A stretch of DNA of 64,000 nt. Origin: Chthoniobacteraceae bacterium. Lineage in GTDB: Bacteria > Verrucomicrobiota > Verrucomicrobiia > Chthoniobacterales > Chthoniobacteraceae. A model generated the notes under the pieces. That model was not told the origin of the DNA and did not search any database. It worked only from the letters and a program-made list of their open reading frames with translations. Position 1 is the stretch's first letter; each line of letters opens with the position of its first letter. The stretch covers positions 310,001 to 374,000 of the forward strand of contig JAQGOL010000029.1 of NCBI GenBank assembly GCA_028293625.1, in the 5' to 3' direction. Positions 6,983-64,000 of this stretch are shown in pieces. A program made the translations under genes and the position numbers.

Positions 6983-8488
6983 TCAACGGGCGGCCGGAGC
7001 GGCCTCGGCGTTCCATTGCCAGCCCGGATGCCGGACATAGGCAAGCGATTCCTTCACATCCAATCCTTTGCGGGCTTCAGCCACAAACTCGCTCCTGTGC
7101 CGATTCCAGATAGCCTGTTCAGCCGAGGTCGGCGTATGGCGCACATTGTAAGGCACGCGATTTCCCACCAGCATGACCAGGTAACCTTCCAGCCCGAAAT
7201 CGTTTTCAGTGCGGGGAAGTCGGTAGCGGCAGAAGCCGGTCGGCCCGTTCTCTTTGTAGAACTCCAGGAGCGGCGCGATGGCGGACACGTCGGTATCGGC
7301 ATTGCAATGGCGCCAGAAGGGAGTCTCAAGCGCCGTATTCACCTTGTAATGAAGGGCAAGGAAATCGCGAATGTCGTTCCATGTGGCGGCCGTCAGATCG
7401 TTGTAAAGGGTGCGCATCGTTGGAGGCGGCTCCAGCTTGCTGTGAATCAGGAAGTCGACCAGTGTCTGCATATTCGAACAGACGATCATCAGCGATGTGG
7501 CTTCAAGCGGTTCGACAAAGCCACTCGCGTTTCCGACTCCAACGACATTTTCCACCCATTGCCGCCGGTAACAGCCAGAGCGGAATTTAACCACGCGCGG
7601 CGATTTTGGCGCCTTCGGGTTTTTGCGCAGGAACTCTTCCGCGGCGGCATCATCTGAGATCCCCTGGGAAGAGTAGACATAACCGCGGTTGACGTGGTGT
7701 TCGTGCTCGATCTGCCACGCCCAGCCGGAGTCCATCGTCTCGGCGGTTGTATAAGGGAGAATCGGTTCATCGGTGCGTTCCCAGCCACCGACCACCGCGC
7801 GATCACAGAAAAGGGAGCGGTCAAAACCGATAAACGGTTCTTCAAGCGCTTTGCCGAGGAGCTCGCTGCGGAAGCCGCTTGAATCGATGAAAAAATCGGC
7901 CTCGATGCGGCGGCCATCATCGAGCATCACCGCGGAGATCCCGTTCGGACCGCGTTCGGCACCGCTGACTTTGCCGTCGGTAAATTCAACGCCCACCTCA
8001 CGAGCGACGATTTCGAGCACGTCCACGAATTTCTTGTTCTCAATATGGAACGCATGCCACGGCTGGATATCCGGGCAGCCATTGGCTTGGCGTGGAAAAG
8101 CCTTGCCGTTGGCCATGAGCGCCGCGGGAAGGCTCGCGCAACTAAAATCGTCGTCGCAATAAAAGCCCGTGGGCTTTGGCAGGTCATTCCAATGGGTGTC
8201 GAGCTGCTGGTTGAACGTGTAGTCGAAACGTCCGCGCGGTCCCCAAAGAAATTTGATCCCGAGTTTCCATGTTGGTTCGGCCAGTTCGTAAAACCGTTTC
8301 CGGCTGATCCCGAGGTAGTCAAAAAGGTGCTTTGGGAAGTTCGGCGTGGTTCCTTCGCCAACTCCGATGACTCCCAGGTCCGGGCTGCGCACCACATGGA
8401 CGCTGAGCTGCGGGATTTTTCTTTTAAGGGAAATGGCGGCGATCAAACCAGCGCTGCCGGAGCCGAGGACTAAGATTTTTTTGATCAT
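6983..8488 (-). CDS. Flavin-dependent tryptophan halogenase family protein (variant)
   Basis: The 501-residue product belongs to the Trp halogenase family (PF04820). Visible are the FAD-binding GSGSAG (residues 9-14), the second conserved GVIGVGEGTTPNF block, and IDSSGFRSELLG. The lysine that positions hypohalous acid in PrnA/RebH aligns with Lys75 in PTWKLGIKF, and the active-site Glu aligns with Glu329 in FVEPLEAT, where the following Ser is Ala. The diagnostic WxWxIP motif is changed to WAWQIE (residues 256-261). It might halogenate an aromatic substrate with FADH2 supplied by a separate reductase, or may have another flavin chemistry. No flavin reductase gene is adjacent. It lies downstream of a PEP-CTERM protein gene, separated by a terminator-like hairpin. 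A paralogue is at 47520-49016. Confidence 0.88.
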   Translation of the reverse strand: MIKKILVLGSGSAGLIAAISLKRKIPQLSVHVVRSPDLGVIGVGEGTTPNFPKHLFDYLGISRKRFYELAEPTWKLGIKFLWGPRGRFDYTFNQQLDTHWNDLPKPTGFYCDDDFSCASLPAALMANGKAFPRQANGCPDIQPWHAFHIENKKFVDVLEIVAREVGVEFTDGKVSGAERGPNGISAVMLDDGRRIEADFFIDSSGFRSELLGKALEEPFIGFDRSLFCDRAVVGGWERTDEPILPYTTAETMDSGWAWQIEHEHHVNRGYVYSSQGISDDAAAEEFLRKNPKAPKSPRVVKFRSGCYRRQWVENVVGVGNASGFVEPLEATSLMIVCSNMQTLVDFLIHSKLEPPPTMRTLYNDLTAATWNDIRDFLALHYKVNTALETPFWRHCNADTDVSAIAPLLEFYKENGPTGFCRYRLPRTENDFGLEGYLVMLVGNRVPYNVRHTPTSAEQAIWNRHRSEFVAEARKGLDVKESLAYVRHPGWQWNAEAAPAAR

Positions 8489-8559: not shown

Positions 8560-10479
8560 TTATTTGCGGCGCCGGCGGCCGGCGAGGCCAAGCGCGCCCA
8601 ACGTTAGCAAACCGAAAGTCGCCGGCTCGGGCACAACGCTGTACTTCAGGTTCACGGTCCCGCCGTTTTCTTCAATCCAGTAAACGCTTTGACTATCCGC
8701 GTTATAGGCGCCGTTTTCGCCCGCTGTTTCTGAGATCAAGGATGCACCGCCGCTATTAAAACCGAGGACCGTGGTGGTTGTCTCCTCGAACATTCCAACA
8801 ATCGCGTCGACGGTACCAAGTGTGAAAGTGCCGGTATTCGGACCGGTTGTGGCAAGGGCGGGAACAGTGAGCCCGGTCAGGTCCAATGTTACGCCGGCAC
8901 TGATATTAAAAGTGCCGTTGATATCGAAGGTTTTATTGTCGTCGAGTTTAAGTCCCGCGGCGGGATTGCCGATGAGCAGGCTGCCGTTGACCGTAATGAC
9001 GCCGGCGCCGGAGCGGGTCAATTTACCGCCCGTGAAGTCGAAGGTGCCGTTGCTGGTATCGATTGCGCCATCGACTGAAAGGGTGCCTCCGGAAAAGTTG
9101 TAGACGCCGGCTCCGTTGGCCTGCACATCGAGGTTGCCGGAAATTGAAACCGTGCCGCCGGTTTGTGTCACGACGCCGTTCCCGTTCTCGGCAATATCGA
9201 GCTCCGCAACTCTGAACTGGCCGGTGCCACTTACGTTTAAGGCACCCTGGCCGCCCCCGGCCCAGCCTACCCGTGCCGAATCGAAACTGGCGGTGCCGTC
9301 TGAGATATTCCACGTGCCGCGTCCTCCGGCATTTTCACCCAGAAGCAGGTTGCCATTGCCGACCGTGCTGACGGTTCCGCCGGTTTGATTGGTTGTCCCT
9401 ACACCGCCAAGGCTTCCAAGGATAAAATGGCTTCCGTTGCCACCTGCCTTGGTAAAGGTGCCGCCGCTGATGTCGATCGCGCCTGTGCCTCCCTCACGCC
9501 CAACCGCGATCCAGTTTGTTGCCGTTACTGTGCCTGCGCTCAGGTTCATGGAACCATTGCTTTGGCCACTCTCGCCAACCCAGAGTTCCCCGAGCTGCAG
9601 CAGGGAAGCGCTGTTGTTTACAATCACCGTGCCATTGCTGCCCGCACGGTCGGCAATCGAAAAAAGATCATTGGGATTTTTGTAGGTCCCACCCGAGAGC
9701 ACCATTTTACCGGTGGAACCAATCGCGCCGACATACGTTCGTCCGGCGTTTGTCAGGGTGCCACCGCTCATGTTAAGTGTCCCGTTGGCGCCCGGGGTCG
9801 ATTCTTCCTTGCCGAAAAAGTTCCAGCCGCCGGTGGTGATGGTGCCTGCGTCCACGTTCATCACGCCCGTGCCGCCAGCCGATCCCACCGTCAGATCATT
9901 TCCAATCTGGAGCGTGCCCGAGGTGTTCACATTGAACGTGCCGACGCCCCCTGGTCCAAAATTCGCCCCTCCCACATAAACACGGCCGGCGGTGGTTGAG
10001 CCGCCACCCACCGTGAGGTTTCCGGAGCTCAAACCGAATCCGGTCAAAGTGCCACCCGTCGTCGATGTATCGGCGAGGTTATATGTGCCTGTGCCGCCAT
10101 CGCGCCCAACCAAAAACCAGTTGTTGAGCCCGGTGGAAACCGATCCCGCGTTTTGATCGACTCGTCCGGAGTTGCCGGCGCCCGTTCCAACCAGGATGTC
10201 ACGAGGACTGACTGAAAGATTATCTGAGATGCTTGGAAAATTGTTCAGCTGGTTAATCACCGCATCGTCATAGGAATCGGCCGGAGCAGGCTGGTTGTTA
10301 ACAGCGGCCGGCACGCGTCCCAGATTCCAGTTTCCCGCGGTATTCCAGTCGCCGCTGATTGCTGCTCCGGTCCAGAAATTCTCAGTCGCCATCAGAGGCG
10401 TACAAAGTACAAAAAACGAAGCGATACTGCTGGCTAAGGCGTGTTTAGAAGAACGATTGAATGCGGCAATTGGAGACAT
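8560..10479 (-). CDS. PEP-CTERM protein with autotransporter-type beta repeats
   Basis: The 639-residue product has an N-terminal signal peptide (about residues 12-31, ending near MATENFW). The passenger is a long array of short Gly/Thr/Asn-rich repeats of the type 'GTLNMSGGTLTNAGRTYVGA' that predict a right-handed beta-helix like autotransporter passengers. The C-terminus carries a PEP-CTERM sorting signal: the PEP tripeptide in VVPEPATFG, a hydrophobic helix and a terminal RRRRK cluster. Such proteins are exported and processed by an exosortase (not in this window), often in organisms that make extracellular polysaccharide matrices. The role is probably structural or adhesive. It is followed by the halogenase-like gene in the same direction. 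Confidence 0.9.
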   Translation of the reverse strand: MSPIAAFNRSSKHALASSIASFFVLCTPLMATENFWTGAAISGDWNTAGNWNLGRVPAAVNNQPAPADSYDDAVINQLNNFPSISDNLSVSPRDILVGTGAGNSGRVDQNAGSVSTGLNNWFLVGRDGGTGTYNLADTSTTGGTLTGFGLSSGNLTVGGGSTTAGRVYVGGANFGPGGVGTFNVNTSGTLQIGNDLTVGSAGGTGVMNVDAGTITTGGWNFFGKEESTPGANGTLNMSGGTLTNAGRTYVGAIGSTGKMVLSGGTYKNPNDLFSIADRAGSNGTVIVNNSASLLQLGELWVGESGQSNGSMNLSAGTVTATNWIAVGREGGTGAIDISGGTFTKAGGNGSHFILGSLGGVGTTNQTGGTVSTVGNGNLLLGENAGGRGTWNISDGTASFDSARVGWAGGGQGALNVSGTGQFRVAELDIAENGNGVVTQTGGTVSISGNLDVQANGAGVYNFSGGTLSVDGAIDTSNGTFDFTGGKLTRSGAGVITVNGSLLIGNPAAGLKLDDNKTFDINGTFNISAGVTLDLTGLTVPALATTGPNTGTFTLGTVDAIVGMFEETTTTVLGFNSGGASLISETAGENGAYNADSQSVYWIEENGGTVNLKYSVVPEPATFGLLTLGALGLAGRRRRK

Positions 10480-47519: not shown

Positions 47520-49016
47520 TTACTTGTAAAAATCCGGGTTCCATTTCCAGTGCGGACCACGAACAAGTACGAGGCTTTCCTCGACGCTGAAACCGCGTTT
47601 GGCCTCATTAGTATTGGTACTGCGCAAGGCGGTGAGAATGCGCGACTCTTCGTCATTGGAAGCCCGGACCCGTTTATGAGGAACTCTTTGCCCGAGTAAC
47701 AACGCGTAGAAACCTTCAAGCTGGAAAATACTGGTTTCAGGTGTGAGCAGCTCGCCTGCAAATGCGGTGCTCGGTCCGTTTTCCTGGTAAAAATTAACGA
47801 TCCGTTCCGCGCCGTGCAGGGCGGTTTTTTCCCGGCAGAACTTCCAAAACGGCGTGTCGAGCCGTGAATTAAACCGGTAGTGAACGGCAAGGAAATCGCG
47901 GATCTCCTCCCACATTTTGGTGACGGTGCAATTATAAACATCGCGCAATGTCGGTTGCGGATCGCATTCACAGTCCGCCAGCGCGATGGCAAGAGCACGG
48001 GCGGAATTGCAAATGACAAAAAGCGCGGTGGCTTCAAGCGGCTCGACAAACCCGGCGCTGTTGCCCAATGCGACGACGTTCTTCACCCAGGTCCTCCTGT
48101 AGCGCCCGGTGCGAAAGTTCACGATTCGCGTCTGTTTAACCTTCCGGTTTTTATTGCGAAATTCCGCCTCGGCGTCGGTATCGGACAAAAAGGCGGAGCT
48201 GAAGACGTATCCTCGATTAATGTGCTGCTCGTGTTCAATTTGCCATGCCCAACCCGCTTTCATGGTTTCGGCAATCGTATATGGAAGGACCGGTTCGCCC
48301 GTCCGTTCCCACCCGCCCGCAATGGCGCGATCGCAGAAAAGGGAATCGTCGAAGCTTTTAAAGGGCTCTTCAAGCGCGCCTCCAAGCAGTTCGGAGCGGA
48401 ACCCGGATGAATCAATAAAGAGATCCGCGGTCAATTTCTCCCCGGAATCGAGCTCGAGCGAGGAGACTCCCTCCGGACCTCGTTCAACGTGCCGGACTTT
48501 ACCCTCGGTGAACCGGATCCCGAGGATCGTCGCATAGTGTTCCAATGCCGCGACGAAATGCGCATTTTCGAAGTGATAAGCGATGTTGCGGCGAATGAGC
48601 GGCGCCCCGTTGGGCAATCGCAGGAACGCTTTTTTCTCGTGCATGAGCGCCGAGTTGGCATCGAGCGAATCGCAATTCTCCCACGCATGGAAACCGAGGT
48701 GTTGCGCGAGCCCCGGCGTGGTACCGATAAAAGTCTTCGTGAAAGTGTAGTCAAACGACGGCCGCGAGCCCCACTCAAAGTGGACTCCGAGTTTCCAGGT
48801 CGGCCGGGCGCGTTGATGAAAGTCAGCCGGATCAATTCCAAGGTATCCGTGCAAATGGTTGGGGAGATCGCCCGTGCTCCCTTCCCCAACCCCGATAATT
48901 CCGATTTCCTTGCTGTAAACAACGCGGATCCCAAGTCGCGGGAGGCGGGCCTTCAAGGTGAGTGCGGCGAGCAACCCGGCGCTGCCTCCCCCAAGAATGA
49001 CGATGTTTTGAATCAT
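47520..49016 (-). CDS. Flavin-dependent tryptophan halogenase family protein, second paralogue
   Basis: The ATG at 49016 (MIQNIVILGGGSAGLLAA) gives 498 residues; an in-frame start at 49052 adds an unrelated segment. It aligns with the paralogue at 6983-8488 without gaps through the first 300 residues. FAD-binding GGGSAG (9-14), Lys75 in PTWKLGVHF and Glu328 in FVEPLEAT are conserved; the Ser after this Glu is again Ala, and WxWxIP is again WAWQIE (256-261). No flavin reductase is adjacent. It is divergent, with 172 bases between, from the giant LTD-CotH gene. Halogenase, oxygenase or other flavin chemistry is possible. Confidence 0.88.
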   Translation of the reverse strand: MIQNIVILGGGSAGLLAALTLKARLPRLGIRVVYSKEIGIIGVGEGSTGDLPNHLHGYLGIDPADFHQRARPTWKLGVHFEWGSRPSFDYTFTKTFIGTTPGLAQHLGFHAWENCDSLDANSALMHEKKAFLRLPNGAPLIRRNIAYHFENAHFVAALEHYATILGIRFTEGKVRHVERGPEGVSSLELDSGEKLTADLFIDSSGFRSELLGGALEEPFKSFDDSLFCDRAIAGGWERTGEPVLPYTIAETMKAGWAWQIEHEQHINRGYVFSSAFLSDTDAEAEFRNKNRKVKQTRIVNFRTGRYRRTWVKNVVALGNSAGFVEPLEATALFVICNSARALAIALADCECDPQPTLRDVYNCTVTKMWEEIRDFLAVHYRFNSRLDTPFWKFCREKTALHGAERIVNFYQENGPSTAFAGELLTPETSIFQLEGFYALLLGQRVPHKRVRASNDEESRILTALRSTNTNEAKRGFSVEESLVLVRGPHWKWNPDFYK

Positions 49017-49188: not shown

Positions 49189-52100
49189 GTGGTGGGCTCC
49201 CTCCGTCTCCTCCCCCTGTTCGTGCTCCTCTCTCTCTGCGTCCTTCAGACGCGGCTGGAAGCGCAATTTGTCATCTCGGAATTTGTGGCCAGCAACGTCG
49301 AGGGAATTGTCGATGAAGACGGCAATCACGAAGACTGGATTGAAATCTATAATTCGGGTTTGTCGGCTGCCAGCCTTCGCGACTGGTATCTTACCGACAA
49401 ATCAAGCCAGCTGCGCAAATGGGCGTTTCCGGACAAGATCCTTCAACCCGGCCAGTATCTTGTCGTTTTTGCTTCCAATAAAGACAGGCGCAATCCGGCG
49501 GCTAATCTGCATACAAATTTCGGCCTTGATGCCGGGGGTGAATATCTCGCGCTTACCAAAGGAGAAACCAATGGCGGAACCACGGTGGTGCAGTCGTGGA
49601 ACGAGTATCTGCCTCAGGCCGCCGATGTTTCGTTTGGACTCGTGCAGACCGGTGGTTCTGCCAATCTCATCTCGGCTGGATCGGCGGTAAAATGGCTGGT
49701 GCCAAATTCAACAACCGGACCCGCCATCGACACGACGTGGCGCGGAGCCAACGAACCGTTCACTGAAACCGGTTGGAGTACGGGCGTGGCCGCGCTCGGG
49801 CTGGCGGGTCCACCTCCGGTTGTCGGCGCGGAAAGTCTCCAGCATCGTTACAACTCCACCACCAACTCTCTTGGGTATGATAGTTCCGGCGCCGGACGCA
49901 ACGCGACCTCCAGCGGCGCCGCTTTTTTACTCTCCGATACCGACTCAAGCGTGGCCCCGCTCAAACGTGCCGGCGTGATGCAGTTTATAGGCGCTGAAAA
50001 CGATCAGGTAAGTATCCCCGCCAATTCAGCCTACAATGCGGCATCGGCCACGGTTTGTTTCTGGTTGCGAGCCAATTTGCCGGCCGGTGCCGGCAACGCG
50101 GGCGCGATGCTTTGGGATCGACGCCCTGATTATGCCACGGCCGGCCTTGTGATTATTCAGCAGGACGACGGAAAGATCGGGCTTCAATCCAATAACGCGT
50201 ATTCAAGTTTATCCGGCGCCGTCAACGTGAGCGACAACGCATGGCATCACGTCGCGGTGACCATTAATCAAGGCGCAGGAGAACCTGTCGCGGTTTATGT
50301 CGATGGCGAACTCGATAGCTCAATCAATAATACGGCGGCCTGGAGCTGGACCACGGCGCAGGCTATCGAGCTTGGACGCTCCCACGATGCTTTTTGGCGG
50401 CGCTACACCGGGCTTCTTGACGATGTGCGCTTTTACAGCCGGCTCCTAACTCCCTCGGAAATTCAGCAGATTGCCCAAGGCGCTGATTCGCTCATGGGCA
50501 CGTCCCTTTTCAGCACAACCGGAGTGGATGCGGCCGATATCTCCACACAACTCGCCGGCATGGCTTCGGTTAACTCGTCGGCCTATGTGCGGATTCCTTT
50601 TACCGCGTCCGCGCCGGCCACGCTCGGCGGGGTGCGGCTTACAGTGCGTTTTTGCGATGGGGTTAAAGCGTGGATTAACGGCACGGAGGTCGCTTCCTTC
50701 AATGCCCCCGCGATTCCGCTTTGGGACAGTATCGCCACCGGAGCGCACGATCCGGGTCGCAGTCGGCTTCAGACGGTCACCATTCCCGCGAGCGGACTCA
50801 AGGCCGGGGCCAACGTCCTGGCGCTTCAGATTTTAAACAATTCGGCCAGCGATCCCAACGTTTTACTCCGGCCTGTTTTGGATGCATTGCCGCTTGGAAG
50901 TGGCACAAGCAGCTACCTTGTTGCTCCGACGCCGGGCAGCGCAAATAGCGCTGGGCTTGCGGCGCTTGGACCGCATATCTCACGCACCACAAGCAATCCG
51001 GCACGGCCTGTTGGCGGCGCCGGCAGCGCGCCGCTCCTGATCACAACGCGGGTGCAAGCGCGCCTTGGCCCGGTTGCTTCGGTGCAACTGGCGTATCGGG
51101 TCATGTGGGGAGCCGAGCTGCTTGTAACCATGCAACAAGGCGCCAACGGCGATTTTAGTGCTCAGATTCCGACCTCCAATCTGAAATCGGGCGACATGCT
51201 CCGGTGGCGGATCATCGCAAAAGATACAGCCAATACACAATCGACCGACCCGCTTTTTCTTAACCTTGATGGGGTGGCAGGAGCCGACACCGACCAATAC
51301 TTCGGCACGGTCGCTCAGGAAGGCGGCTATAACACGCAGCTACCGGTCCTCTATTGGTTTGTCCAGAACCCCAACGGCATCAGCCCGGGAACGCAATGCA
51401 GCATCTTCTACCGCGACAGGTTCTATGATTATGTCGGTGTTAGTATTCATGGCCAATCGACACAGTCTTTCCCCAAAAAGAGCTTGAACCTTTCCTTTAA
51501 CAAAGGAAACAGGTTTGCCTGGGCTCCGGGTGAAGCCGAGATCCGGAGCGTCAACCTTCTTTCCGACTACGCGGATAAATCCAAGGTCCGCAATACAATG
51601 GCCTATGAGACATGGCATAGCATGCAGCATCCGGCTTCGCATTTCTCCAATCTACTGCATGTCCGGCAAGCGACAGGCACCGCGCCGGCCGCCGCTTTTT
51701 ATGGCCTTTACGACATGGTCGAAGACGGGAATGAAGAGTTCCTGGCCCGGTGCGGTCTGGACGAGAACGGCGCGCTTTATAAGATGTATAACTCGCTGGA
51801 GTCGACCAGCGGCGCCGAGAAGAAAACGCGCGAGTTTGAAAACGTCTCGGATCTTCAGGCGCTGATTGACGGCGTCAATCCCGGCACAAAGTCGATCGCC
51901 CAACGGCGGCAATATGCATACGACAATGTCGATATCCCGGCGTTGATCAATTTCGCGGCCGTCAACACCATGATCCTCAATACCGATTGGGGACATAAAA
52001 ACTACTATGTCTACCGCGACACGTTAGGCACCAAGGAATGGATGCCGATTCCCTGGGATCAGGATCTCAGCTTCGGGCATTGTTACACCGGCGCGCAAGG

Positions 52101-53928
52101 CTACTTTGATGACGATATCCGCAGCCAGGGCGGACTGGTGGTTGGCGGCACGGGAAACTACCTTGTCAGCCTTGTCTATGCGGCTCCCGAACTTAACCAG
52201 ATGTTCGTGAGGCGGATTCGCACCCTGATGGATCAATACCTCGGCTCGGCTGCCGCGACAACCGGGCCGTTTGAAACGCGCATTTCCCAGCTTGTTGATC
52301 AACTCGATCCTCCCGGCGCCACTTATCTTACCGACGCCGATCGCGAACTTCAAAAATGGGGCTACTGGATCGATGGCAGCGGCTCCCAGCTATTTAGCGG
52401 GACACTCGATGCGGCCGTTCACGATCATGGTGTTCGCAAGCAAGCGCTTCGCATCCTGAGTGCCAACCCCACACCGCCCAACCCCTCCTCAACCGCAAAT
52501 CCGGAACTCGGCAACACGACAGCCTCCTTTTTACGGGGACGCAGGACTTTCCTATATACAGCGAACCCAAACAGCAATGGACTTGGGGTTCCTCCATTGC
52601 AGCCTTCCATTCCCGTGCTTACTATCGAGCAGATCGATTTTAATCCCGCCTCTGGCAATCAGGACGAGGAATTTTTTGTCATAAAAAATTCCAGTGGCAC
52701 CTCGGTCGATCTTTCCGGCTGGCAGATCACGGGAGCGGTGAACTTTACCTTTCACGGGGGAACAATCATCCCGGCTTATACCAATGGCACGGATAACATC
52801 GGGCTTCTTTACGTTGCGAAATCGCCCGCCGCTTTCCGGGTCCGCGCCCAAGGCGCAACCGGCGGACAATACCGTTTGGTTGTCGGCCCGTATTCCGGCT
52901 CGCTTTCCGCCCGGGGCGAGACCCTGGCATTGCGCAACCCAGGCGGCGTTCTCTTAAAAAGCCAATCGTGGGCGCCTGCCTCTACCGCAGCGCAAAATCA
53001 ACTTCGCGTCTCAGAGCTCAACTATTCGCCGGCACCGCCGACTACCGGGGAGATGGCGGCAATTCCCGGGGTCAGCGCCTCGGACTTCGAGTTTCTTGAG
53101 CTGACAAATATCGGGACGACAGCTTTGAATCTGAGCGGGGTGAAGTTCGTTAAAGGAATCGAGTTCGCTTTCCCGCTTGGCACGACATTGGCCGCGGGAG
53201 GCCGCGTGATCCTGGTTAGCAATCGGGCGGCGTTTCTTGCCCGTTACGGTGCCGGAGTGCCAGTTGGCGGGCAATATATCGGCAATCTTAACGATGGCGG
53301 CGACACGCTCCAGCTTCTCGACTCGCAAGGTGAAGAGGTGCTTGAATTCCATTATGAACCTTCCTGGTTTCCGGAAAGCAACGGGCTTGGCCGCACCCTG
53401 GTAACCCGCAGCGCGGCGCCCAACTGGAGCGATTACGGCTCCGCTTCAGCCCCACTGCCAGCGGTCTGGGCGCTGAGCGCGGCCCCCGGTGGCACGCCCG
53501 CGATGCCCGACACCGATTTCAGCTCCGGTTACAATGGCTGGCGTTTTGACTATTGGACCCTGGAGGAACTCAGCACCTCGGGCGCCCTGGTCAATCCCGC
53601 TGACGACGCCGACGGCGATGGAATGAGCAATTTTGCCGAATATTGCTTCGGACAGAATCCGAGGGTGAAAGACGCCGCATTGCCGCCGAGGGCAACGGTT
53701 GTCACGGTTGAAGGTGTCGACTATCCGGGCATTCTGTTTACGCGACGGCATCTCGCTCTGGATATCGTCTGGAACGTGGAGGAGTCGGATAATCTGATTG
53801 ACTGGAAAATAACAGGTGTCTTTGATTCAAATAACACGTTTTCAAACGGAGTTGAGCAGGCTATTTATCGCTCCAAAACCGCCGCAAACCAAGCTCCCCG
53901 CTTTCTTCGCGCCAGCGCGACAAAATAG
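49189..53928 (+). CDS. Giant secreted LTD-LamG-CotH kinase protein
   Basis: The 1579-residue product starts at GTG 49189 with a signal peptide (MVGSLRLLPLFVLLSLCVLQTRLEA). Domains in order: lamin-tail domain (about residues 27-125; FVISEFVASNVEGIVDEDG, DWIEIYNSG), LamG/concanavalin-like domain (about 220-430; SVSDNAWHHVAVTI-type, VYVDGELD), a beta region, a CotH domain (about 715-1010; PKKSLNLSFNKGNRF, NTDWGHKNYYVYRD, WDQD at 956-959 with metal-binding Asp957 and Asp959), then two further LTD domains (about 1140-1400) and a TSP3-like DDADGDGMSNFAEY. CotH domains are atypical protein kinases in spore coats. There is no PEP-CTERM anchor. It probably acts in or beyond the periplasm on a surface protein. 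Confidence 0.88.
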   Translation: MVGSLRLLPLFVLLSLCVLQTRLEAQFVISEFVASNVEGIVDEDGNHEDWIEIYNSGLSAASLRDWYLTDKSSQLRKWAFPDKILQPGQYLVVFASNKDRRNPAANLHTNFGLDAGGEYLALTKGETNGGTTVVQSWNEYLPQAADVSFGLVQTGGSANLISAGSAVKWLVPNSTTGPAIDTTWRGANEPFTETGWSTGVAALGLAGPPPVVGAESLQHRYNSTTNSLGYDSSGAGRNATSSGAAFLLSDTDSSVAPLKRAGVMQFIGAENDQVSIPANSAYNAASATVCFWLRANLPAGAGNAGAMLWDRRPDYATAGLVIIQQDDGKIGLQSNNAYSSLSGAVNVSDNAWHHVAVTINQGAGEPVAVYVDGELDSSINNTAAWSWTTAQAIELGRSHDAFWRRYTGLLDDVRFYSRLLTPSEIQQIAQGADSLMGTSLFSTTGVDAADISTQLAGMASVNSSAYVRIPFTASAPATLGGVRLTVRFCDGVKAWINGTEVASFNAPAIPLWDSIATGAHDPGRSRLQTVTIPASGLKAGANVLALQILNNSASDPNVLLRPVLDALPLGSGTSSYLVAPTPGSANSAGLAALGPHISRTTSNPARPVGGAGSAPLLITTRVQARLGPVASVQLAYRVMWGAELLVTMQQGANGDFSAQIPTSNLKSGDMLRWRIIAKDTANTQSTDPLFLNLDGVAGADTDQYFGTVAQEGGYNTQLPVLYWFVQNPNGISPGTQCSIFYRDRFYDYVGVSIHGQSTQSFPKKSLNLSFNKGNRFAWAPGEAEIRSVNLLSDYADKSKVRNTMAYETWHSMQHPASHFSNLLHVRQATGTAPAAAFYGLYDMVEDGNEEFLARCGLDENGALYKMYNSLESTSGAEKKTREFENVSDLQALIDGVNPGTKSIAQRRQYAYDNVDIPALINFAAVNTMILNTDWGHKNYYVYRDTLGTKEWMPIPWDQDLSFGHCYTGAQGYFDDDIRSQGGLVVGGTGNYLVSLVYAAPELNQMFVRRIRTLMDQYLGSAAATTGPFETRISQLVDQLDPPGATYLTDADRELQKWGYWIDGSGSQLFSGTLDAAVHDHGVRKQALRILSANPTPPNPSSTANPELGNTTASFLRGRRTFLYTANPNSNGLGVPPLQPSIPVLTIEQIDFNPASGNQDEEFFVIKNSSGTSVDLSGWQITGAVNFTFHGGTIIPAYTNGTDNIGLLYVAKSPAAFRVRAQGATGGQYRLVVGPYSGSLSARGETLALRNPGGVLLKSQSWAPASTAAQNQLRVSELNYSPAPPTTGEMAAIPGVSASDFEFLELTNIGTTALNLSGVKFVKGIEFAFPLGTTLAAGGRVILVSNRAAFLARYGAGVPVGGQYIGNLNDGGDTLQLLDSQGEEVLEFHYEPSWFPESNGLGRTLVTRSAAPNWSDYGSASAPLPAVWALSAAPGGTPAMPDTDFSSGYNGWRFDYWTLEELSTSGALVNPADDADGDGMSNFAEYCFGQNPRVKDAALPPRATVVTVEGVDYPGILFTRRHLALDIVWNVEESDNLIDWKITGVFDSNNTFSNGVEQAIYRSKTAANQAPRFLRASATK

Positions 53929-54026: not shown

Positions 54027-57000
54027 GTGAAAAAACCACGTATTCTCTCCGCCGGCATCGCCGTGATTCTCGCCCTGCCCAGCATCGTTTCCGCAGCAGA
54101 CCGCACCTGGGTAGGGCTTGGTACTCCGGGCCTCTGGACAGACCCGCTCAATTGGGATTCGGGAGTGCCAGTGGCCGGAGACAATATTTTCGTTCGGCCG
54201 ACCGGGAATGTGTCGGCGCCAGCATTTGATGGCGGCAACGTATTTGTGGCGACGGGAACCCCGGACGTTTTGACGAGCGGTTTTACGTTTGGCAGTGGAA
54301 CGACAAATATCGGATTTCTGGCGGTGGGCGAAGCGCACAATGGGCCCAATCCGACAACAAACCGGTTTGGCCGCGCATTTATCAATGCCGGGACGACGCT
54401 TAATGTCGGGCAGTTTTTTGTCGGGGATTGGGATGGCGGCACGGGCCAGGTGCTCCAGGGTGGCGGGGATGTGAATGTGAGCGGTCAATTCCGGGTGGGC
54501 CACTGGCCGCAGGCCGATGTCGGCGCCGGCACCGCGAGCAGCTATACACTGAACGCGGGAACCGTGACAGTCAGTGGCGATCCGACAAATCCTTTTGATG
54601 AAGGACAAGGCGGCAATGTATTTCTTGGGATCGACAGCACCGGTGTATTGACCATCAACGGTGGAACGTTCACCAGCAAGGGGATCACGCTTGATAACCG
54701 CGGGGCCACGGCGGGAAAAGACACGCTGGCCATCAATGGAGGCACGGTCAATGTCGGTGCAAACGGCATCGTCAGCGAAAAGAATGCGCTTGATACATCC
54801 ACGTATGAAGTGCGCCTTTCGGGCGGCGTTCTTCGCGCCACCGCAGGGTTTACCTCCAATCTTGAAATGAACGTCGTTGGTGGTGGTACGGGCATCAAGA
54901 TTGATACCAACGGCAATACCGTCGCACTTACAAACAACCTGGTAGGCGAGGGCGGTATCACCAAAGTAAGCGCGGGTTCACTTCAGCTCAGCGGGCGGAA
55001 CAGCTTTGCGGGGGGACTCACCATCAATGGCGGCACGGTGGAACTGAGCAATGGCAGCACAGTGGGCACGGGGGCGACTCTTATCGCTTCAGGCGCCAAA
55101 CTTTCTTCCAATAGCACGACTGTGGTGGTGCTTGCCAACGCGGTCAGCGGGACCGGCGCGGTCGCCGTCGATGCCGGAATCCTGCGGCTGGGCAATGTGA
55201 GCGGTTCTCTTGCCACCACCGTGGCGTCCGGAGCAACCCTCGGGGTTGCCGGCACGCTGGGGGCAGTGAGCGCTTCGTCGGGAAGCACTCTGGAAGTCGG
55301 AGTGGGCGGTATTGGAAACTTCACAGCCAGCACCCTGACCCTCGGCGCGGGCGCCGGGGATACGCAGACGCTTAAATTTACCGTTGGCACCACGACTCCG
55401 CAGCTCGTGGTCACCGGCAACAATGGACTGGTCGCCAATGGCTCCACCACGATTCAGATCAACGCGGCTGGTTTGACCGCCGGCACTTATACTTTGATTG
55501 ATTACGCCGGGACGATTGGCGGCGCCGGTTTTGGAAGCTTTAATCTGGTCGGTTTGCCGGCCCGCGCGACGGGCGGTTTGATAAACAGCGGTACCGACAC
55601 GGCTATCAAGTTGAGTATCACCGCCATCGATTTCCCAAAATGGACGGGGGCAATTGATGCCAATTGGAACGGCACGACTCAAAATTGGAAACTGGTGAAT
55701 GCAGGCGGTTCAACCAATTATCAGAATCAGGATGCGGTCCTCTTCGATGACACCGCCATTGGAAGCACAACGATCAATCTTGCGGCTGCATTTACTCCCG
55801 CTGCGGTCTCTTTTAATAACAGCACAAAGACGTACACCCTTGGCGGCTCCGGAGAGATCGCGGGAGCGACAGGCTTGTTAAAACAGGGGACGGGCCGCGT
55901 CATCCTCAGCACGGTAAATAGTTATACCGGCCCAACCGATATCCGGGCGGGAACGCTTCAGGTCGGCGATGGAATCAGCGGCTCAATCAATGCGGTTTCA
56001 CCGGTCACGGTTGGCGCGGCCGGCACGCTCGAATTAAATCTAAGCGGGGCTTATGCTTCGCCGACCAGCGGCACCGGGACCGTGCGAACCATCGGCGCAA
56101 ACAGTTTTGAGGTGGCAGCCAGTGTTTTCGCCGGGACGCCAAAGCTCGTCATTGCCGGTGATTCCTCACAGGTGATCGGAGTGAATAACCAGCCTGCTTA
56201 CGATGGGGATATCACCATCTCGTCGGGCACCTTCAAGGCGCTTGGGGTGCAGTCGCTTGGTTCCCTTACCGGGACCACCACGATTACCAATGGCGGTACG
56301 CTAGATGTGAACAACGTCGACCTCGGTGCGGAGCAGGTGTTTGTCGCTGGAACCGGCGTGGGCGATAACGGCGCGATCGTGAACTATGGCGGAGGCACGA
56401 TTTTAAACCTTCATAAAGTGACCCTGACCGCCGACGCGACTTTTGGCGGCTCCGGCCGCTGGGATATCCGCACCTCGGGCACGCCGGGCGAGTTCCTCGA
56501 CCTTGCCGGTCATAAGCTGACGAAGGTGGGTGGGAATCAGGTCAGCGCGGTCGAAGTGCTTATCACACCGGGGGATATCGACATTAACGGCGGCATCTTC
56601 AGCATCGAGGGGCAAACGACTGCCCAGGGCGCGGGAACCATCACCCTCAATGCAGGCGGCACGCTTGGCCTTTATGTGAATGGCGCGGATAAAGTAACCC
56701 GGCAGATCGTTGCCAATGGCGGCGGCATTCTTGAGCTTGGAAGCGGACAGAGTGGGACGATTAATTCGCCGATCTCCATGCGGGCGGATCTCCCTTACGC
56801 GGTAAATGGGGGTAATACAGTGGTAAATCAGGTCGGAAATATCACTGAATCCGGTGGTTCGTTTATCTTAAATAAAAATGGAGACGGCAGGCTCGTACTC
56901 CTTGGCAACAACAGCTGGACAGGCGGTTTTAACGTCAACGCCGGCACGCTTCAGGTCGGCACCAATGGCGTCGATGGAACTCTCGGCACGGGTCCGGCGA

Positions 57001-58928
57001 CCATCCTCGGCACGCTCACCGTCTCCAAGAGCAATACGACCACCATTAATGGCGACATCAATCCAAACGGCCCGGAAGGCCAGATCCAGATTACCGGCGG
57101 CGGCGCTGTGACATTGACCGATGGGACCGACGTCAACGTAAGAGTGCTGAGCTTTGGGTTAAATGGCGTGAACGATACAGTGGGCGGCACCTTGAACGTC
57201 GTTCCGGGATCGTCGCTTGTCGTCAACGACACTATTGCCATCGGGAACTCTGCCGGAAGCGGATCGCTCACCCAAGGCGTCATCAACCAGACCGGTGGCA
57301 CCGTGGAGATCAACGCTCCAAATACCGATGGCCGCAATTTTGTTTTGGGACATTGGGGCAATACCCAGGGCATCTATAATCTTTCCGCCGGAACGCTAAC
57401 CTCGCCGAACATTTCCATGTCGGTCTCCTGGGACGGAGAGGGCTCCTTCAACCAAACCGGCGGAACGGCCAATGTAAGGGGATTGCGTTTTGGCCATAAT
57501 GGCGGACGCACCGGTGTTTATAACCTTACCGGCGGCACGCTTGCACTCGGCGTCGACGGGATCTGGGCGGAAAACGCCGGGACACCGAACGACATCAATC
57601 TGGGAGGCGGCATCGTAAAAGCCGCAACCGATGCGCCAATATCGCTTCCGGTGGAACTGACCGGCACCAATGGCGATGTGACTTTTGATACCAACGGAAA
57701 TACGCTCACCTTGACCGGCGCAATCTCCGGCAGCGGCGGACTGACGAAAGCCGGCGCCGGTCGCCTGGTTATCGATGCGGCCAATTCAGCAGCGGGGATC
57801 TTTGTTGTGAATGCCGGCACACTCTCCGTCCGTGGCGAACAGACCCAAAACCGCATCGCGGCGAATGGCATTGTTCAGGTCAACTCCGGAGGCGCGTTTG
57901 AGTTCGGCTCGACCAACCCGGCGGCATTCAGCGTCAACTATATCGTGAACGCTGGGGGGACAATCACCAATGCAGCCGGTGTAAACCATGCGCACCTCGG
58001 CTCTGTGAATCTCAATGGCGGAACCTGGACAACAGACGCCGCTTCCGGGGAATATAACGGCGAAAATTACTTCCTCCACACCGGGGTTTCGGTCACGGGA
58101 ACCGTGCCGTCGCTGATCACGCAGGAAGGTGGAACGGCGGCCAACCGCGGCATTGGCTGGAGTGGAAACGTGACCTTCGATGTGGCTGACGTGACCGCGA
58201 GCAGCGCGGCCGACCTGACCGTCTCCACCGAGCTTGAGGATAGCGACATGGCGGCGGCGGCATTGATTAAATCAGGGCAGGGGACCATGGATGTGGCTTT
58301 TGCGAACTCCTACACGGGTGGAACCACAATCAATGCCGGCACATTGCGTGTTAATAATCTTACCGGCTCGGGAACGGGCACGGGCAATGTCTCCGTAGCG
58401 GCCGGAGCGCGTCTTGGCGGGTCCGGAATCGTTGGAGCGGGCGGGGCTGTGAGCGTCTCAATCAGTGGCAAGCTGGCACCGGGCAACTCGGGCTTGGTTT
58501 CGGCCGGCAAGCTGACATTTGACCTTGGCACCGGCGCGCTCGATGTCGAGGGGGCCGTCACTGCGCCGGCCAGCGCTTCTCTGGAGTTTAACCTCGGCTC
58601 CGTGAACGACAGCGTTCTGCTTACCACCGGCACGCTTCACATCGGCACCGGCGTGCTAAACTTCGACGATTTCCTGTTTACCAGAGACGCTGGGTTTACC
58701 GGAGGCGATATTGTTCTCTTCGACAGCAATAATCCTATTGATGGAACATTGGGCACGGCGCTTTCGGGCTCCCTGGGCGGAGGTGCTTTTGGAACGATCC
58801 AGTTTGGCGACAACAATCATGACCTTGTCCTTCACGTGATCCCCGAACCCGGCAGCGCACTCCTTCTAGCGGCTGGCGCCGGTATTTTGGGCGCCTTCCG
58901 CCGTCGCCGCCGCGCTCAAACCATCTGA
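54027..58928 (+). CDS. Giant PEP-CTERM protein with autotransporter-type beta-repeats
   Basis: The 1633-residue product starts with GTG (MKKPRILSAGIAVILALPSIVSAADRTW), a clear signal peptide. The body is a long array of Gly/Thr/Asn-rich strands with autotransporter-associated beta-strand repeats such as GGTVELSNGS, SAGSLQLSGRNSF, LLKQGTGRVILSTVNSYTGPTDIRAGTLQVGDG and LTKAGAGRLVIDAANS, which predict an extended beta-helix. The C-terminus has the PEP-CTERM signal: VIPEPGS, a hydrophobic helix LLLAAGAGILGAF and RRRRR. It would be secreted and sorted by an exosortase to the cell surface or matrix. It follows the CotH protein gene after 98 bases, on the same strand. Confidence 0.92.
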   Translation: MKKPRILSAGIAVILALPSIVSAADRTWVGLGTPGLWTDPLNWDSGVPVAGDNIFVRPTGNVSAPAFDGGNVFVATGTPDVLTSGFTFGSGTTNIGFLAVGEAHNGPNPTTNRFGRAFINAGTTLNVGQFFVGDWDGGTGQVLQGGGDVNVSGQFRVGHWPQADVGAGTASSYTLNAGTVTVSGDPTNPFDEGQGGNVFLGIDSTGVLTINGGTFTSKGITLDNRGATAGKDTLAINGGTVNVGANGIVSEKNALDTSTYEVRLSGGVLRATAGFTSNLEMNVVGGGTGIKIDTNGNTVALTNNLVGEGGITKVSAGSLQLSGRNSFAGGLTINGGTVELSNGSTVGTGATLIASGAKLSSNSTTVVVLANAVSGTGAVAVDAGILRLGNVSGSLATTVASGATLGVAGTLGAVSASSGSTLEVGVGGIGNFTASTLTLGAGAGDTQTLKFTVGTTTPQLVVTGNNGLVANGSTTIQINAAGLTAGTYTLIDYAGTIGGAGFGSFNLVGLPARATGGLINSGTDTAIKLSITAIDFPKWTGAIDANWNGTTQNWKLVNAGGSTNYQNQDAVLFDDTAIGSTTINLAAAFTPAAVSFNNSTKTYTLGGSGEIAGATGLLKQGTGRVILSTVNSYTGPTDIRAGTLQVGDGISGSINAVSPVTVGAAGTLELNLSGAYASPTSGTGTVRTIGANSFEVAASVFAGTPKLVIAGDSSQVIGVNNQPAYDGDITISSGTFKALGVQSLGSLTGTTTITNGGTLDVNNVDLGAEQVFVAGTGVGDNGAIVNYGGGTILNLHKVTLTADATFGGSGRWDIRTSGTPGEFLDLAGHKLTKVGGNQVSAVEVLITPGDIDINGGIFSIEGQTTAQGAGTITLNAGGTLGLYVNGADKVTRQIVANGGGILELGSGQSGTINSPISMRADLPYAVNGGNTVVNQVGNITESGGSFILNKNGDGRLVLLGNNSWTGGFNVNAGTLQVGTNGVDGTLGTGPATILGTLTVSKSNTTTINGDINPNGPEGQIQITGGGAVTLTDGTDVNVRVLSFGLNGVNDTVGGTLNVVPGSSLVVNDTIAIGNSAGSGSLTQGVINQTGGTVEINAPNTDGRNFVLGHWGNTQGIYNLSAGTLTSPNISMSVSWDGEGSFNQTGGTANVRGLRFGHNGGRTGVYNLTGGTLALGVDGIWAENAGTPNDINLGGGIVKAATDAPISLPVELTGTNGDVTFDTNGNTLTLTGAISGSGGLTKAGAGRLVIDAANSAAGIFVVNAGTLSVRGEQTQNRIAANGIVQVNSGGAFEFGSTNPAAFSVNYIVNAGGTITNAAGVNHAHLGSVNLNGGTWTTDAASGEYNGENYFLHTGVSVTGTVPSLITQEGGTAANRGIGWSGNVTFDVADVTASSAADLTVSTELEDSDMAAAALIKSGQGTMDVAFANSYTGGTTINAGTLRVNNLTGSGTGTGNVSVAAGARLGGSGIVGAGGAVSVSISGKLAPGNSGLVSAGKLTFDLGTGALDVEGAVTAPASASLEFNLGSVNDSVLLTTGTLHIGTGVLNFDDFLFTRDAGFTGGDIVLFDSNNPIDGTLGTALSGSLGGGAFGTIQFGDNNHDLVLHVIPEPGSALLLAAGAGILGAFRRRRRAQTI

Positions 58929-62010: not shown

Positions 62011-64000
62011 ATGAAGGTCTATCGCCTGATTTGCGTTCTTTTGTTTTTGGCCGGAGTGCTTCCGTCACCGGTTGACGCGCAAATCCTCATCAACGAGATC
62101 CAGTATCATCCTGTGGAGCAATCGGTCTTTGACGGCAGTGTGGGACGCACTTTTGACGCCGCTGGCAACACCATTTACAGCGATACCCTGGCGGCGGCTG
62201 ACTACAGCGAAGACATTCACGAGTTTATTGAGCTCTTTAATGCCGGCACCGAGAATGTCGACCTGGGCGGATGGCGCTTCTCGCAGGGAGTCACCTATTC
62301 TTTCCCCGCCGGGACAATCATTGCGCCCGGCGGGTACAAGGTGATAGCGAGAAATCCGGCCCGGATTCAAACCGTCTACGGGATTACGGGGGTTCTCGGA
62401 CCGTTCGTTGGCAAATTAAGCAACGATGGCGATACGATCACTTTAATGAATGCGGCCAATGGAATCGCCGACTCGGTGACTTATTCGGCTCACTTTCCAT
62501 GGGCGCAGTCGGCCGATGCCCTTGCGGTCTCCAAGGACTGGCTCGGCTTTGATCCGGTTGCAAACCAATACAAAGGCCGCTCCCTGCAGCGGGTTAGCCT
62601 GGCGAGTTCGCCCAATGACCCCGCCAATTGGGTGGCATCGCCGCTCAATCCCGGTCCCAGCCCTGGCGCGGCAAATCCCCAGAGCCGTCCCGTGCCCAAG
62701 CCTGTGGTGGTGGCCTTTTCAGTGGCGCAAAGCGTGGGCGGTTCTCCAACCATTCGCGCCAACAACGCAGTAACGGTCAGTGCGACCTTCGGCTCCACGG
62801 CTTCTTTGTCGGCGGTTCAGGTCGAGTATTTCGTTGACGATATCAATTCCTATACCGAAGCGCGCAATACCGTGAATCTGGTCGAGGCGCCCGCCGGCAG
62901 CGGACAGTATACGGGAACGATTCCAGGTCTCGGCAACCGTGCCATTGTGCGCTACCGCTTCAAAGCAAATCGCGGCACGGGAACTGAAGTGGTTTCTCCC
63001 CGCGCCGATGATCCTCAGATTGTGCCGGTGAGTGCGACCACAAAGGAAGGATGGCATTCTTACTTTGTATCGCCCGCTCGAACTTCGACCAGGCCGATCT
63101 ACGATTGCTTTGTATCGACAAGCAGCATCACTGTTCTTAATACGAACATCAACCAAAGTCCCTCCCGGCGGATCACTCCGGAAGGGAATCCGCGTGAAAT
63201 TCCGTATGTCTTGCCAACAGCGCCGCAATGGAACGGGGTGCAGCCGGGTATCGTGGTATATAACGGAGTTGTTTACGATATCATGTTCCGGTTCCATGGC
63301 AGCCGCTATCGCCGAAGTGAGGCGCGTCAGAGCTACAAATGGCAGTTCCCTCGATCGAACCTTTTTCAGGGAACAATTCAGGAGGTGTTTGAAACGGACA
63401 AAGCCCGCGACACCGGAAACCATCCCAATACGGAATGGGCGCATGCGATTTATCGCGCGGCGGGGATCCCGACATCCTACACGCAGCATGTCGACCTCTA
63501 TTTTAACAACAACATCAACCCGATCGAACAATTGGAGCAGAGTGTCTGCGACGATCGCCTGTTGGAGCGTTACTACAACGAGCTTTATAAGCGTGACCGC
63601 TCGCAGCCCGAGCTATTGCCGGGCGACGTCTACAAATGCAAGAGCACCGATGAAGGCTCCACGGGCCCTTATGTGACTTATACCGGCCAGAAGCTCACCA
63701 CTAATCGCGCTTCCACCACCGGCAATATCTGGACTCCGCTGCATCAATATCGTTGGAACCTGACGATGCAGAACAACGAATGGAAAGGGTGGAAGCCGTT
63801 GAAGGATATGGTGGATGCGATGTGGACGGTGAAGAGCACCAATAACATAAATTCAATCCGCGCATGGCTGGCAGCCAATTGGGATGTGGATAGAACACTG
63901 ACTGAGATTGCCATCCGCAACTGGAGTTGCTGTTGGGATGATTCTTTCCACAACTATTATCTCTATCGCGAGGCAAATGGGAAATGGACGATGCTGCCGT
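62011..64000 (+). CDS. Secreted LTD-CotH kinase protein (3' partial)
   Basis: An ATG at 62011 opens a frame that stays open for 663 codons to the window edge. The N-terminus is a signal peptide (MKVYRLICVLLFLAGVLPSPVDA). A lamin-tail domain follows (about residues 25-190; ILINEIQYHP, EFIELFNAGTENVDLGGWRF, FVGKLSNDGDTITLMNA), then a linker and a CotH region (YDIMFRFHGSRYRRSEARQSYKW, VFETDKARDTGNHPNTEWAHAIYRAAGIP, and NWSCCWDDSFHNYYLYREANGKW). The window ends just before the expected metal-binding WDxD motif. It is a second, distinct CotH protein: its CotH core differs from that at 49189-53928 (SRYRRSEARQSYKW against PKKSLNLSF). Confidence 0.85.
   Translation, partial: MKVYRLICVLLFLAGVLPSPVDAQILINEIQYHPVEQSVFDGSVGRTFDAAGNTIYSDTLAAADYSEDIHEFIELFNAGTENVDLGGWRFSQGVTYSFPAGTIIAPGGYKVIARNPARIQTVYGITGVLGPFVGKLSNDGDTITLMNAANGIADSVTYSAHFPWAQSADALAVSKDWLGFDPVANQYKGRSLQRVSLASSPNDPANWVASPLNPGPSPGAANPQSRPVPKPVVVAFSVAQSVGGSPTIRANNAVTVSATFGSTASLSAVQVEYFVDDINSYTEARNTVNLVEAPAGSGQYTGTIPGLGNRAIVRYRFKANRGTGTEVVSPRADDPQIVPVSATTKEGWHSYFVSPARTSTRPIYDCFVSTSSITVLNTNINQSPSRRITPEGNPREIPYVLPTAPQWNGVQPGIVVYNGVVYDIMFRFHGSRYRRSEARQSYKWQFPRSNLFQGTIQEVFETDKARDTGNHPNTEWAHAIYRAAGIPTSYTQHVDLYFNNNINPIEQLEQSVCDDRLLERYYNELYKRDRSQPELLPGDVYKCKSTDEGSTGPYVTYTGQKLTTNRASTTGNIWTPLHQYRWNLTMQNNEWKGWKPLKDMVDAMWTVKSTNNINSIRAWLAANWDVDRTLTEIAIRNWSCCWDDSFHNYYLYREANGKWTMLP

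Follow-up and report, generated by a model that had tools for sequence, protein, structure and literature searches.

A MibH-related clade of putative halogenases with an altered WxWxIP motif often adjoins genes of exported-type proteins in Verrucomicrobiota

The window, i.e. the whole 64,000-nucleotide stretch of Chthoniobacteraceae DNA analyzed here, contains two halogenase-like genes of one clade, both located next to genes of exported-type proteins (Table 1). The open reading frame of the gene studied here starts with an ATG at position 8488 and ends with a stop at 6983. It lies on the minus strand, which a preliminary description of this DNA had left unnamed while giving the reading frame correctly. 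Residues 4–444 of the product match the PF04820 family with 331 bits, compared to a cut-off of 21. No signal peptide is visible on the protein, since a Rossmann strand begins at residue 4.

Directly upstream, on the same strand, lies the gene of a repeat protein, hereafter referred to as the partner. The two genes are separated by a 71-nt gap, in which no terminator-like site was found on the minus strand. The N-terminus of the partner is hydrophobic. Its AlphaFold model (mean pLDDT 78.1, with both ends poorly predicted) contains strands throughout the repeat region. No solved structure matched the model significantly, the best match being antigen 43 with an E-value of 0.009, and the term "solenoid" used below therefore rests on the repeats and predicted strands, from which the partner is read as a probable beta-solenoid. 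An exported-type protein at 62011–63999, with an LTD/CotH-like start as judged by eye, is cut by the end of the window. No tRNA or tmRNA genes and no Rfam matches at gathering score were found in window positions 1–64000.

Table 1. Position and basis of the features identified in the window
Feature	Position	Strand	Details and basis
PF04820 halogenase-like gene, WxWxIE clade	6983..8488	-	501 aa; ORF, Pfam, AlphaFold model
GSGSAG FAD-binding motif	8447..8464	-	residues 9-14; sequence
Catalytic Lys75, in PTWKLGIKF	8264..8266	-	by alignment
WAWQIE, replacing WxWxIP	7706..7723	-	residues 256-261; alignment
FVEPLEATS, with catalytic Glu329	7493..7519	-	residues 324-332; by alignment
Partner gene, exported-type repeat protein with PEP-CTERM tail	8560..10479	-	639 aa; gene table, PF07589
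PEP-CTERM sorting signal of partner (PF07589)	8569..8634	-	genome-wide PEP-CTERM scan
WFLVGRDGGTG repeat of partner	10088..10119	-	Trp121, candidate target
WIAVGREGGTG repeat of partner	9482..9513	-	Trp323, candidate target
Second halogenase, same clade, WAWQIE	47520..49016	-	50% identical
Exported-type protein, LTD + CotH + LamG domains	49189..53928	+	1579 aa; Pfam; divergent from halogenase 47520..49016
PATR/PEP-CTERM protein, beside the 1579-aa protein	54027..58928	+	1633 aa; gene table, Pfam

The halogenase sequence was aligned with six solved references (RebH, PyrH, BrvH, Xcc4156, 9luq and MibH), all of which contain WxWxIP and EPxES in this one alignment. As the preliminary description had stated, the GSGSAG sequence, conforming to the GxGxxG FAD motif, is present, and Lys75 and Glu329 align with their counterparts in the reference halogenases. 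Its reading of the altered motifs was also confirmed: the full WxWxIP is absent, WxWxI being present with Pro replaced by Glu (WAWQIE), and the residue that follows Glu329 is Ala. The full Fx.Px.Sx.G motif is absent as well; its Phe and Pro are retained, Ser is replaced by Ala and the closing Gly by Ser. The last replacement is not mentioned in the preliminary description. The same is true of the exported-protein neighbor, which we consider to be the more telling feature.

No flavin reductase gene of the PF01613 family, the only family searched, adjoins the halogenase, in agreement with the preliminary description. Two such genes are located elsewhere in the genome, on contigs C39 and C30 (the window is part of contig C38). 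The absence of an adjacent reductase is therefore uninformative and was rejected as a meaningful sign.

To describe the clade we used 70 distinct proteins, obtained from 75 after five truncated duplicate rows were removed. Position 261 is occupied by Glu in 67 and by Asp in 3 of them, and W256, W258, I260, H262 and E263 are each found in 70 of 70, making WxWxI[E/D]HE a clade-wide motif. Arg268, Gly269 and Tyr270 are also invariant. Glu329 is present in all 70 proteins and Lys75 in all 68 readable rows, the other two being cut at that site. The position after Glu329 is Ala in 66 members and Ser in 4, while the closing Gly of the published Fx.Px.Sx.G motif is replaced throughout, by Ala (63), Ser (6) or Asn (1). 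The Pro of WxWxIP is retained in the proteobacterial rows and in rows of a second Verrucomicrobial type (type 2) aligned alongside, and judging from this alignment the Pro-to-Glu change is a marker of the clade. It may, but need not, by itself stand for new chemistry, a possibility raised in the preliminary description. The Ser-to-Ala change after Glu329 is not peculiar to the clade: Ala also follows the catalytic Glu in type-2 rows and in one Qipengyuania row, all of them with the Pro.

The dN/dS ratios in seven halogenase pairs were 0.05–0.12 (the two widest pairs are at dS 1.7, near saturation), indicating purifying selection. Since Glu or Asp is present in 70 of 70 members and dN/dS is low, the possibility that WAWQIE is a sequencing oddity or a result of one-gene decay was rejected. 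A flavoenzyme that no longer halogenates, considered in the preliminary description, does not appear to be indicated either, given the retained Lys, Glu, both Trp and Ile and the same dN/dS values. In a 2023 review, a shielding role, thought to prevent monooxygenation, is assigned to WxWxIP as a whole, and the function of certain residues inside it is said to remain unclear (PMC10696468). A 2026 preprint already writes the motif as WxWxI(P) and gives the same presumed role (PMC12871659).

Phylogenetic analysis of PF04820 was carried out with a mixture-model tree of 38 rows and a FastTree of 98 rows, which agree with each other; four rows that are cut short were excluded from both. A single clade, with support of 100/100, comprises the WxWxI[E/D] proteins. 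MibH, the sole peptide halogenase in the tree, is placed outside this clade as its sister (100/98). The next branch consists of type-2 Verrucomicrobial proteins with WxW.[IV]P (99/96), with RebH, PyrH and BrvH-like proteins further outside. The window halogenase is, according to this topology, sister to MibH and not a member of a MibH clade, nor is it placed inside any characterized clade that shares the WAWQIE motif. The "uncharacterized halogenase clade" of the preliminary description is thereby supported.

Comparison with solved relatives points in the same direction. In a profile search MibH was the top solved relative, with 418 bits compared to 299 for the next one. The AlphaFold2 model of the window halogenase, built from 37 family members, has a mean pLDDT of 91.8; its best Foldseek match is MibH (5uao) with a TM-score of 0.88. 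MibH was also at the top of structural alignments (Z 44.4, 485 residues, 2.5 Å), nearly tied with Xcc4156, PyrH and AbeH at Z 43. Taken by their sequences, the WxWxI[E/D] proteins are a putative flavin-dependent halogenase-like clade distinct from the characterized ones.

A contig scan confirmed 109 relatives, of which the best 80 loci were taken. Among these best 80, 56 loci (L036-L091) are at least 45% identical; they are mostly from Verrucomicrobiota and include two from Planctomycetota and one from Frankia. The remaining 24 are proteobacterial and more distant. In a phylum-wide draw, with at most five best candidates per genome scored, the clade was found in 8 of 288 genomes at E <= 1e-120, a patchy distribution. 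Among 97 close relatives of the window's genome, 14 contain a match to the halogenase query at E <= 0.001, one of them weak. The genome itself carries six full-length Glu-clade members, a more distant seventh gene and one PF04820 fragment. One 23-kb contig of a relative (contig C73 of G021; L123, L124) carries nine PF04820 genes of two types on one strand.

Next to the PF04820 genes, exported-protein genes are found more often than expected by chance. The genome has 47 PEP-CTERM matches, and 5 of its 7 full-length PF04820 genes directly adjoin a PEP-CTERM gene: those on C38 (6983..8488), C41 (beside a 2992-aa ORF), C27 (one each side), C42 and C31. With 5500 genes assumed for the genome, the chance of such adjacency is about 3e-8. 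Of the other two genes, one adjoins a CotH/LTD/LamG protein and one, on C26, has no such neighbor.

To extend the count to the clade, a partner was defined as an adjacent protein of at least 200 aa, low in charge and rich in G/S/T/N, with simple ORF calling. By this rule 36 of 70 clade members have an exported-type partner, compared to 5 of 205 genes at a greater distance within these loci. Collapsing the members at 90% identity leaves 62, of which 30 have a partner. Among deduplicated members with both neighbors called, a partner is present in 29 of 55 and no exported-type neighbor in 26, while 14 of 143 control genes have one (p 5e-10); the control genes, at least 300 aa each, came from 400 kb at spaced places of a single genome, that of the window, with rough gene calls. 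In the 33 deduplicated adjacencies, the partner is upstream 20 times on the same strand and 6 times on the opposite one, and downstream 4 times on the same and 3 times on the opposite strand. Pfam analysis of nine neighbor proteins revealed PEP-CTERM, LamG, LTD, CotH, PATR and TSP3 domains; two solenoids had no match.

Similarity to seed sequences allowed partner labels to be given to 31 of 66 tree rows (21 solenoid, 8 LamG and 2 CotH/LTD), leaving 35 with none. Partner type follows the halogenase tree: 3 label changes were counted on 26 labeled rows, after removal of five near-identical loci, whereas 500 shuffles averaged 8.2 changes and never gave fewer than 5. Joint inheritance would produce such tracking whether or not the two proteins are biochemically linked. 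In the literature as covered by titles and abstract openings, with subscription papers largely outside, neither the clade nor its pairing with exported proteins was found.

Other contexts of PF04820 genes were also inspected. Among the best 80 of 109 relatives there is one actinobacterial Glu-clade member, that of Frankia torreyi CpI1. This gene (locus L091, 100-12509), which encodes WAWQIE, adjoins the gene of an acyl-carrier (PP-binding) protein, and the locus also contains a desaturase, an acyl-CoA dehydrogenase, an aminotransferase and a radical SAM gene, so that it looks like a biosynthetic cluster. As the Frankia member lacks an exported partner, the WAWQIE motif is not tied to such partners, and since its neighborhood is different, substrates of several kinds may be used within the clade. 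Conversely, a type-2 gene encoding WMWQIP in the window's own genome (L165; contig C31, 1193-10062) is divergent from, and 254 nt away from, the gene of a 2358-aa PATR-like PEP-CTERM protein; pairing with exported proteins is therefore not tied to the Glu. On the basis of these two loci, a link between the Glu motif as such and exported partners was rejected. In proteobacterial homologues (L092-L114, WxWxIP), 9 of 9 scanned large neighbors, picked by size and position, are TonB receptors.

A short motif, W-x-x-[VIL]-G-R, was first seen within the solenoid repeat of linked partners. Without filtering, 16 of 19 linked solenoid-type partners contain it, and it is absent from all 9 LamG, 2 CotH/LTD and 9 unsorted partners. 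Two of the three solenoid-type partners without it are cut fragments; the third (L060) is not. Trp323 of the window partner is invariant in nine aligned partners. The overall Trp content of partners, 0.5–2.8%, is not striking, and no clear Trp context shared by solenoid and LamG partners emerged from a search.

We compared the occurrence of the motif in halogenase-bearing and halogenase-free genomes. In the first set, ORFs had to carry four or more G[TS]G repeats; 11 of 39 partner-like proteins passed this filter, and the window's own partner, which carries two W repeats, was dropped. The motif was found in all 11 linked solenoid ORFs and, within halogenase-bearing genomes, in all 11 unlinked ones, but in 0 of 8 ORFs from halogenase-free genomes. 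The 11 unlinked rows trace back to 10 loci in six genomes, every one a member of family f1, and at one locus (L190) two rows may be a single broken gene; the 8 halogenase-free ORFs belong to five genomes in three lineages, three of these genomes sharing one genus. Four further halogenase-free loci and one locus of the window's own genome (L188) yielded no ORF passing the filter. With a single family supplying every halogenase-bearing genome and five genomes supplying the halogenase-free ORFs, the contrast may be a matter of relatedness. The repeat without the W is plentiful in halogenase-free G062, G089 and G094 (9, 3 and 3 matches).

In the second set, from the phylum-wide draw, the motif was present in 7 of 10 proteins from halogenase-bearing genomes and 2 of 10 from halogenase-free ones (p 0.07), halogenase absence being defined at E <= 1e-120 with the best five candidates per genome scored. 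Here 25 of 30 loci were read: 14 loci of halogenase genomes gave 10 proteins by eye (two of G306 may be one gene), and 11 halogenase-free loci, one without a matching ORF, gave 10 proteins, many of the proteins being partial. Some of the genomes treated as lacking a halogenase in one or the other set (G089, G068, G159 and G226) contain PF04820 matches of 53–72 bits, far below the scores of the WxWxI[E/D] clade. When whole genomes were searched with a DNA pattern for the W repeat, 5 of the 14 with a halogenase and 6 of the 83 without one contained it (p 0.009). Of seven pattern matches in the halogenase-free genomes, two are in short repeat-less ORFs and one in a 39-residue frame; the other four failed the ORF filter. 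The apparent link between the motif and halogenase presence, sharp in the first set and weak in the second, is a lead.

In two-component halogenases, FADH2 and O2 form a C4a-hydroperoxide, halide attack on which yields HOX; this moves to a Lys and a Glu, and the aromatic ring is halogenated. By alignment, the residues named for this chemistry are present in the window halogenase. Our preferred interpretation, a tentative one, is that the gene encodes an active halogenase of the MibH-sister clade which modifies aromatic residues of the partner protein. The enzyme would be a cytoplasmic two-component flavin-dependent halogenase with FADH2 supplied by a general flavin reductase. HOX made from halide and O2 would be steered past Lys75 and Glu329 to an aromatic side chain of the partner, most likely tryptophan, which would be halogenated before export. 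Different halogenase sub-clades would act on different partner types (solenoid repeat, LamG or CotH), with the W-x-x-[VIL]-G-R Trp as the candidate site in solenoids. The Pro-to-Glu change would then be part of the clade's substrate-side or flavin-side surface and not a loss of halogenation.

That the enzyme acts on the exported protein, and does not just adjoin it, we infer with the backing of its kinship with MibH and of a precedent: ChlH, which shares 58% identity with MibH, is reported to chlorinate a Trp located inside a protein of 1054 aa (PMC12518702). A real difficulty is that Sec export leaves a cytoplasmic enzyme little time. The broader version of this interpretation, a dedicated cell-surface protein-halogenation system in which every MibH-sister halogenase has an exported partner of the solenoid, LamG or CotH kind and halogenates specific tryptophans of it (those of W-x-x-[VIL]-G-R in the solenoids), we consider improbable as a whole.

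A working halogenase may instead act on a small or carrier-bound aromatic molecule, the pairing reflecting shared regulation or mobile surface loci; the molecule might decorate the surface protein or be carried by it. We regard this as somewhat less likely than the preferred interpretation. BrvH and Xcc4156 are active on free indole or on indole derivatives, and what they act on in nature is given as unknown (PMC5945002, PMC7336383). The PP-binding carrier protein beside the Frankia member would fit such a substrate, the TonB receptors beside proteobacterial homologues (9 of 9 picked neighbors) can be read as a sign of small-molecule uptake, and many copies occur in some relatives, as on the 23-kb contig with its nine PF04820 genes. 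However, no biosynthetic enzyme set is apparent by eye in the gene table around either window copy, and MibH, the nearest solved relative, acts on a peptide. The agreement of partner type with sub-clade also speaks against a small substrate, though joint inheritance alone would give the same.

It is less probable still that the fold was retained by an enzyme that now oxygenates or oxidizes its substrate, possibly a protein side chain. A charged residue at the Pro of the shield motif would be compatible with this, as WxWxIP is thought to prevent monooxygenation (PMC10696468, PMC12871659), and the Ser and Gly of Fx.Px.Sx.G are replaced too; BrvH and Xcc4156, however, still halogenate without the closing Gly, as reported in PMC7336383. 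A weak match to QhpG (39 bits compared to the NCBIfam cut-off of 240) and a distant match to a solved peptidyl-Trp dihydroxylase, 7ctq, point to oxygenation, while the retention of both Trp, Ile, Lys and Glu across the clade argues against it. The HOX-handling Lys is not needed by a hydroxylase. That the protein is an inactive or scaffold paralogue retained for another role appears very improbable: we know of no reported activity for any WxWxI[E/D] clade member, but the catalytic residues are conserved across 70 members, with dN/dS of 0.05–0.12.

The authors of the work on BrvH and Xcc4156 considered peptides as substrates (PMC5945002, PMC7336383). For the clade described here, the gene neighborhood names a concrete candidate substrate, the partner encoded 71 nt away, and a candidate residue, making the substrate question testable in cultured relatives by mass spectrometry. 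Four loci from named Roseibacillus and Luteolibacter strains (L056, L058, L060 and L077) have a partner-like protein beside the halogenase, and the one at L058 carries the W motif. In addition, the clade provides a natural set of WxWxI[E/D] enzymes for asking about the role of the last residue of WxWxIP. Should the halogenation of partner proteins be true, halogenation would be a post-translational modification that reaches large surface proteins in addition to small peptides and metabolites. The orphan halogenases of Pseudomonadota that are linked to TonB receptors might then be other examples.

Among known systems, MibH, the tryptophan 5-halogenase of the NAI-107 lanthipeptide (PDB 5uao), shares with the window halogenase the fold over 485 residues, the Lys and Glu, and a near-identical PTWKLGI[KR]F stretch. 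It differs in having WCWTIP and EPLESSG, and the identity in structural alignments is 34–36%. No lanthipeptide, lasso-peptide or other RiPP genes were noticed near the window halogenase upon inspection of the gene table by eye. BrvH, Xcc4156 and the Pseudoalteromonas L11 halogenase (9luq) belong to PF04820, as does the window clade, and those of their relatives that were scanned likewise adjoin genes for large outer-membrane proteins. In contrast to the window clade, they retain WxWxIP and form a separate clade, and the neighbors of the scanned relatives are TonB receptors, not PEP-CTERM, LamG or CotH proteins. QhpG, a peptidyl-Trp dihydroxylase, is a flavin enzyme that works on peptide Trp, with weak partial similarity to the window halogenase. 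The free-tryptophan halogenases RebH, PrnA and PyrH have the same fold and are more distant (25–29% identity in structural alignment); RebH and PyrH also share the Lys, the Glu and both Trp of WxW, and differ from the window halogenase at the Pro, Ser and Gly motif positions.
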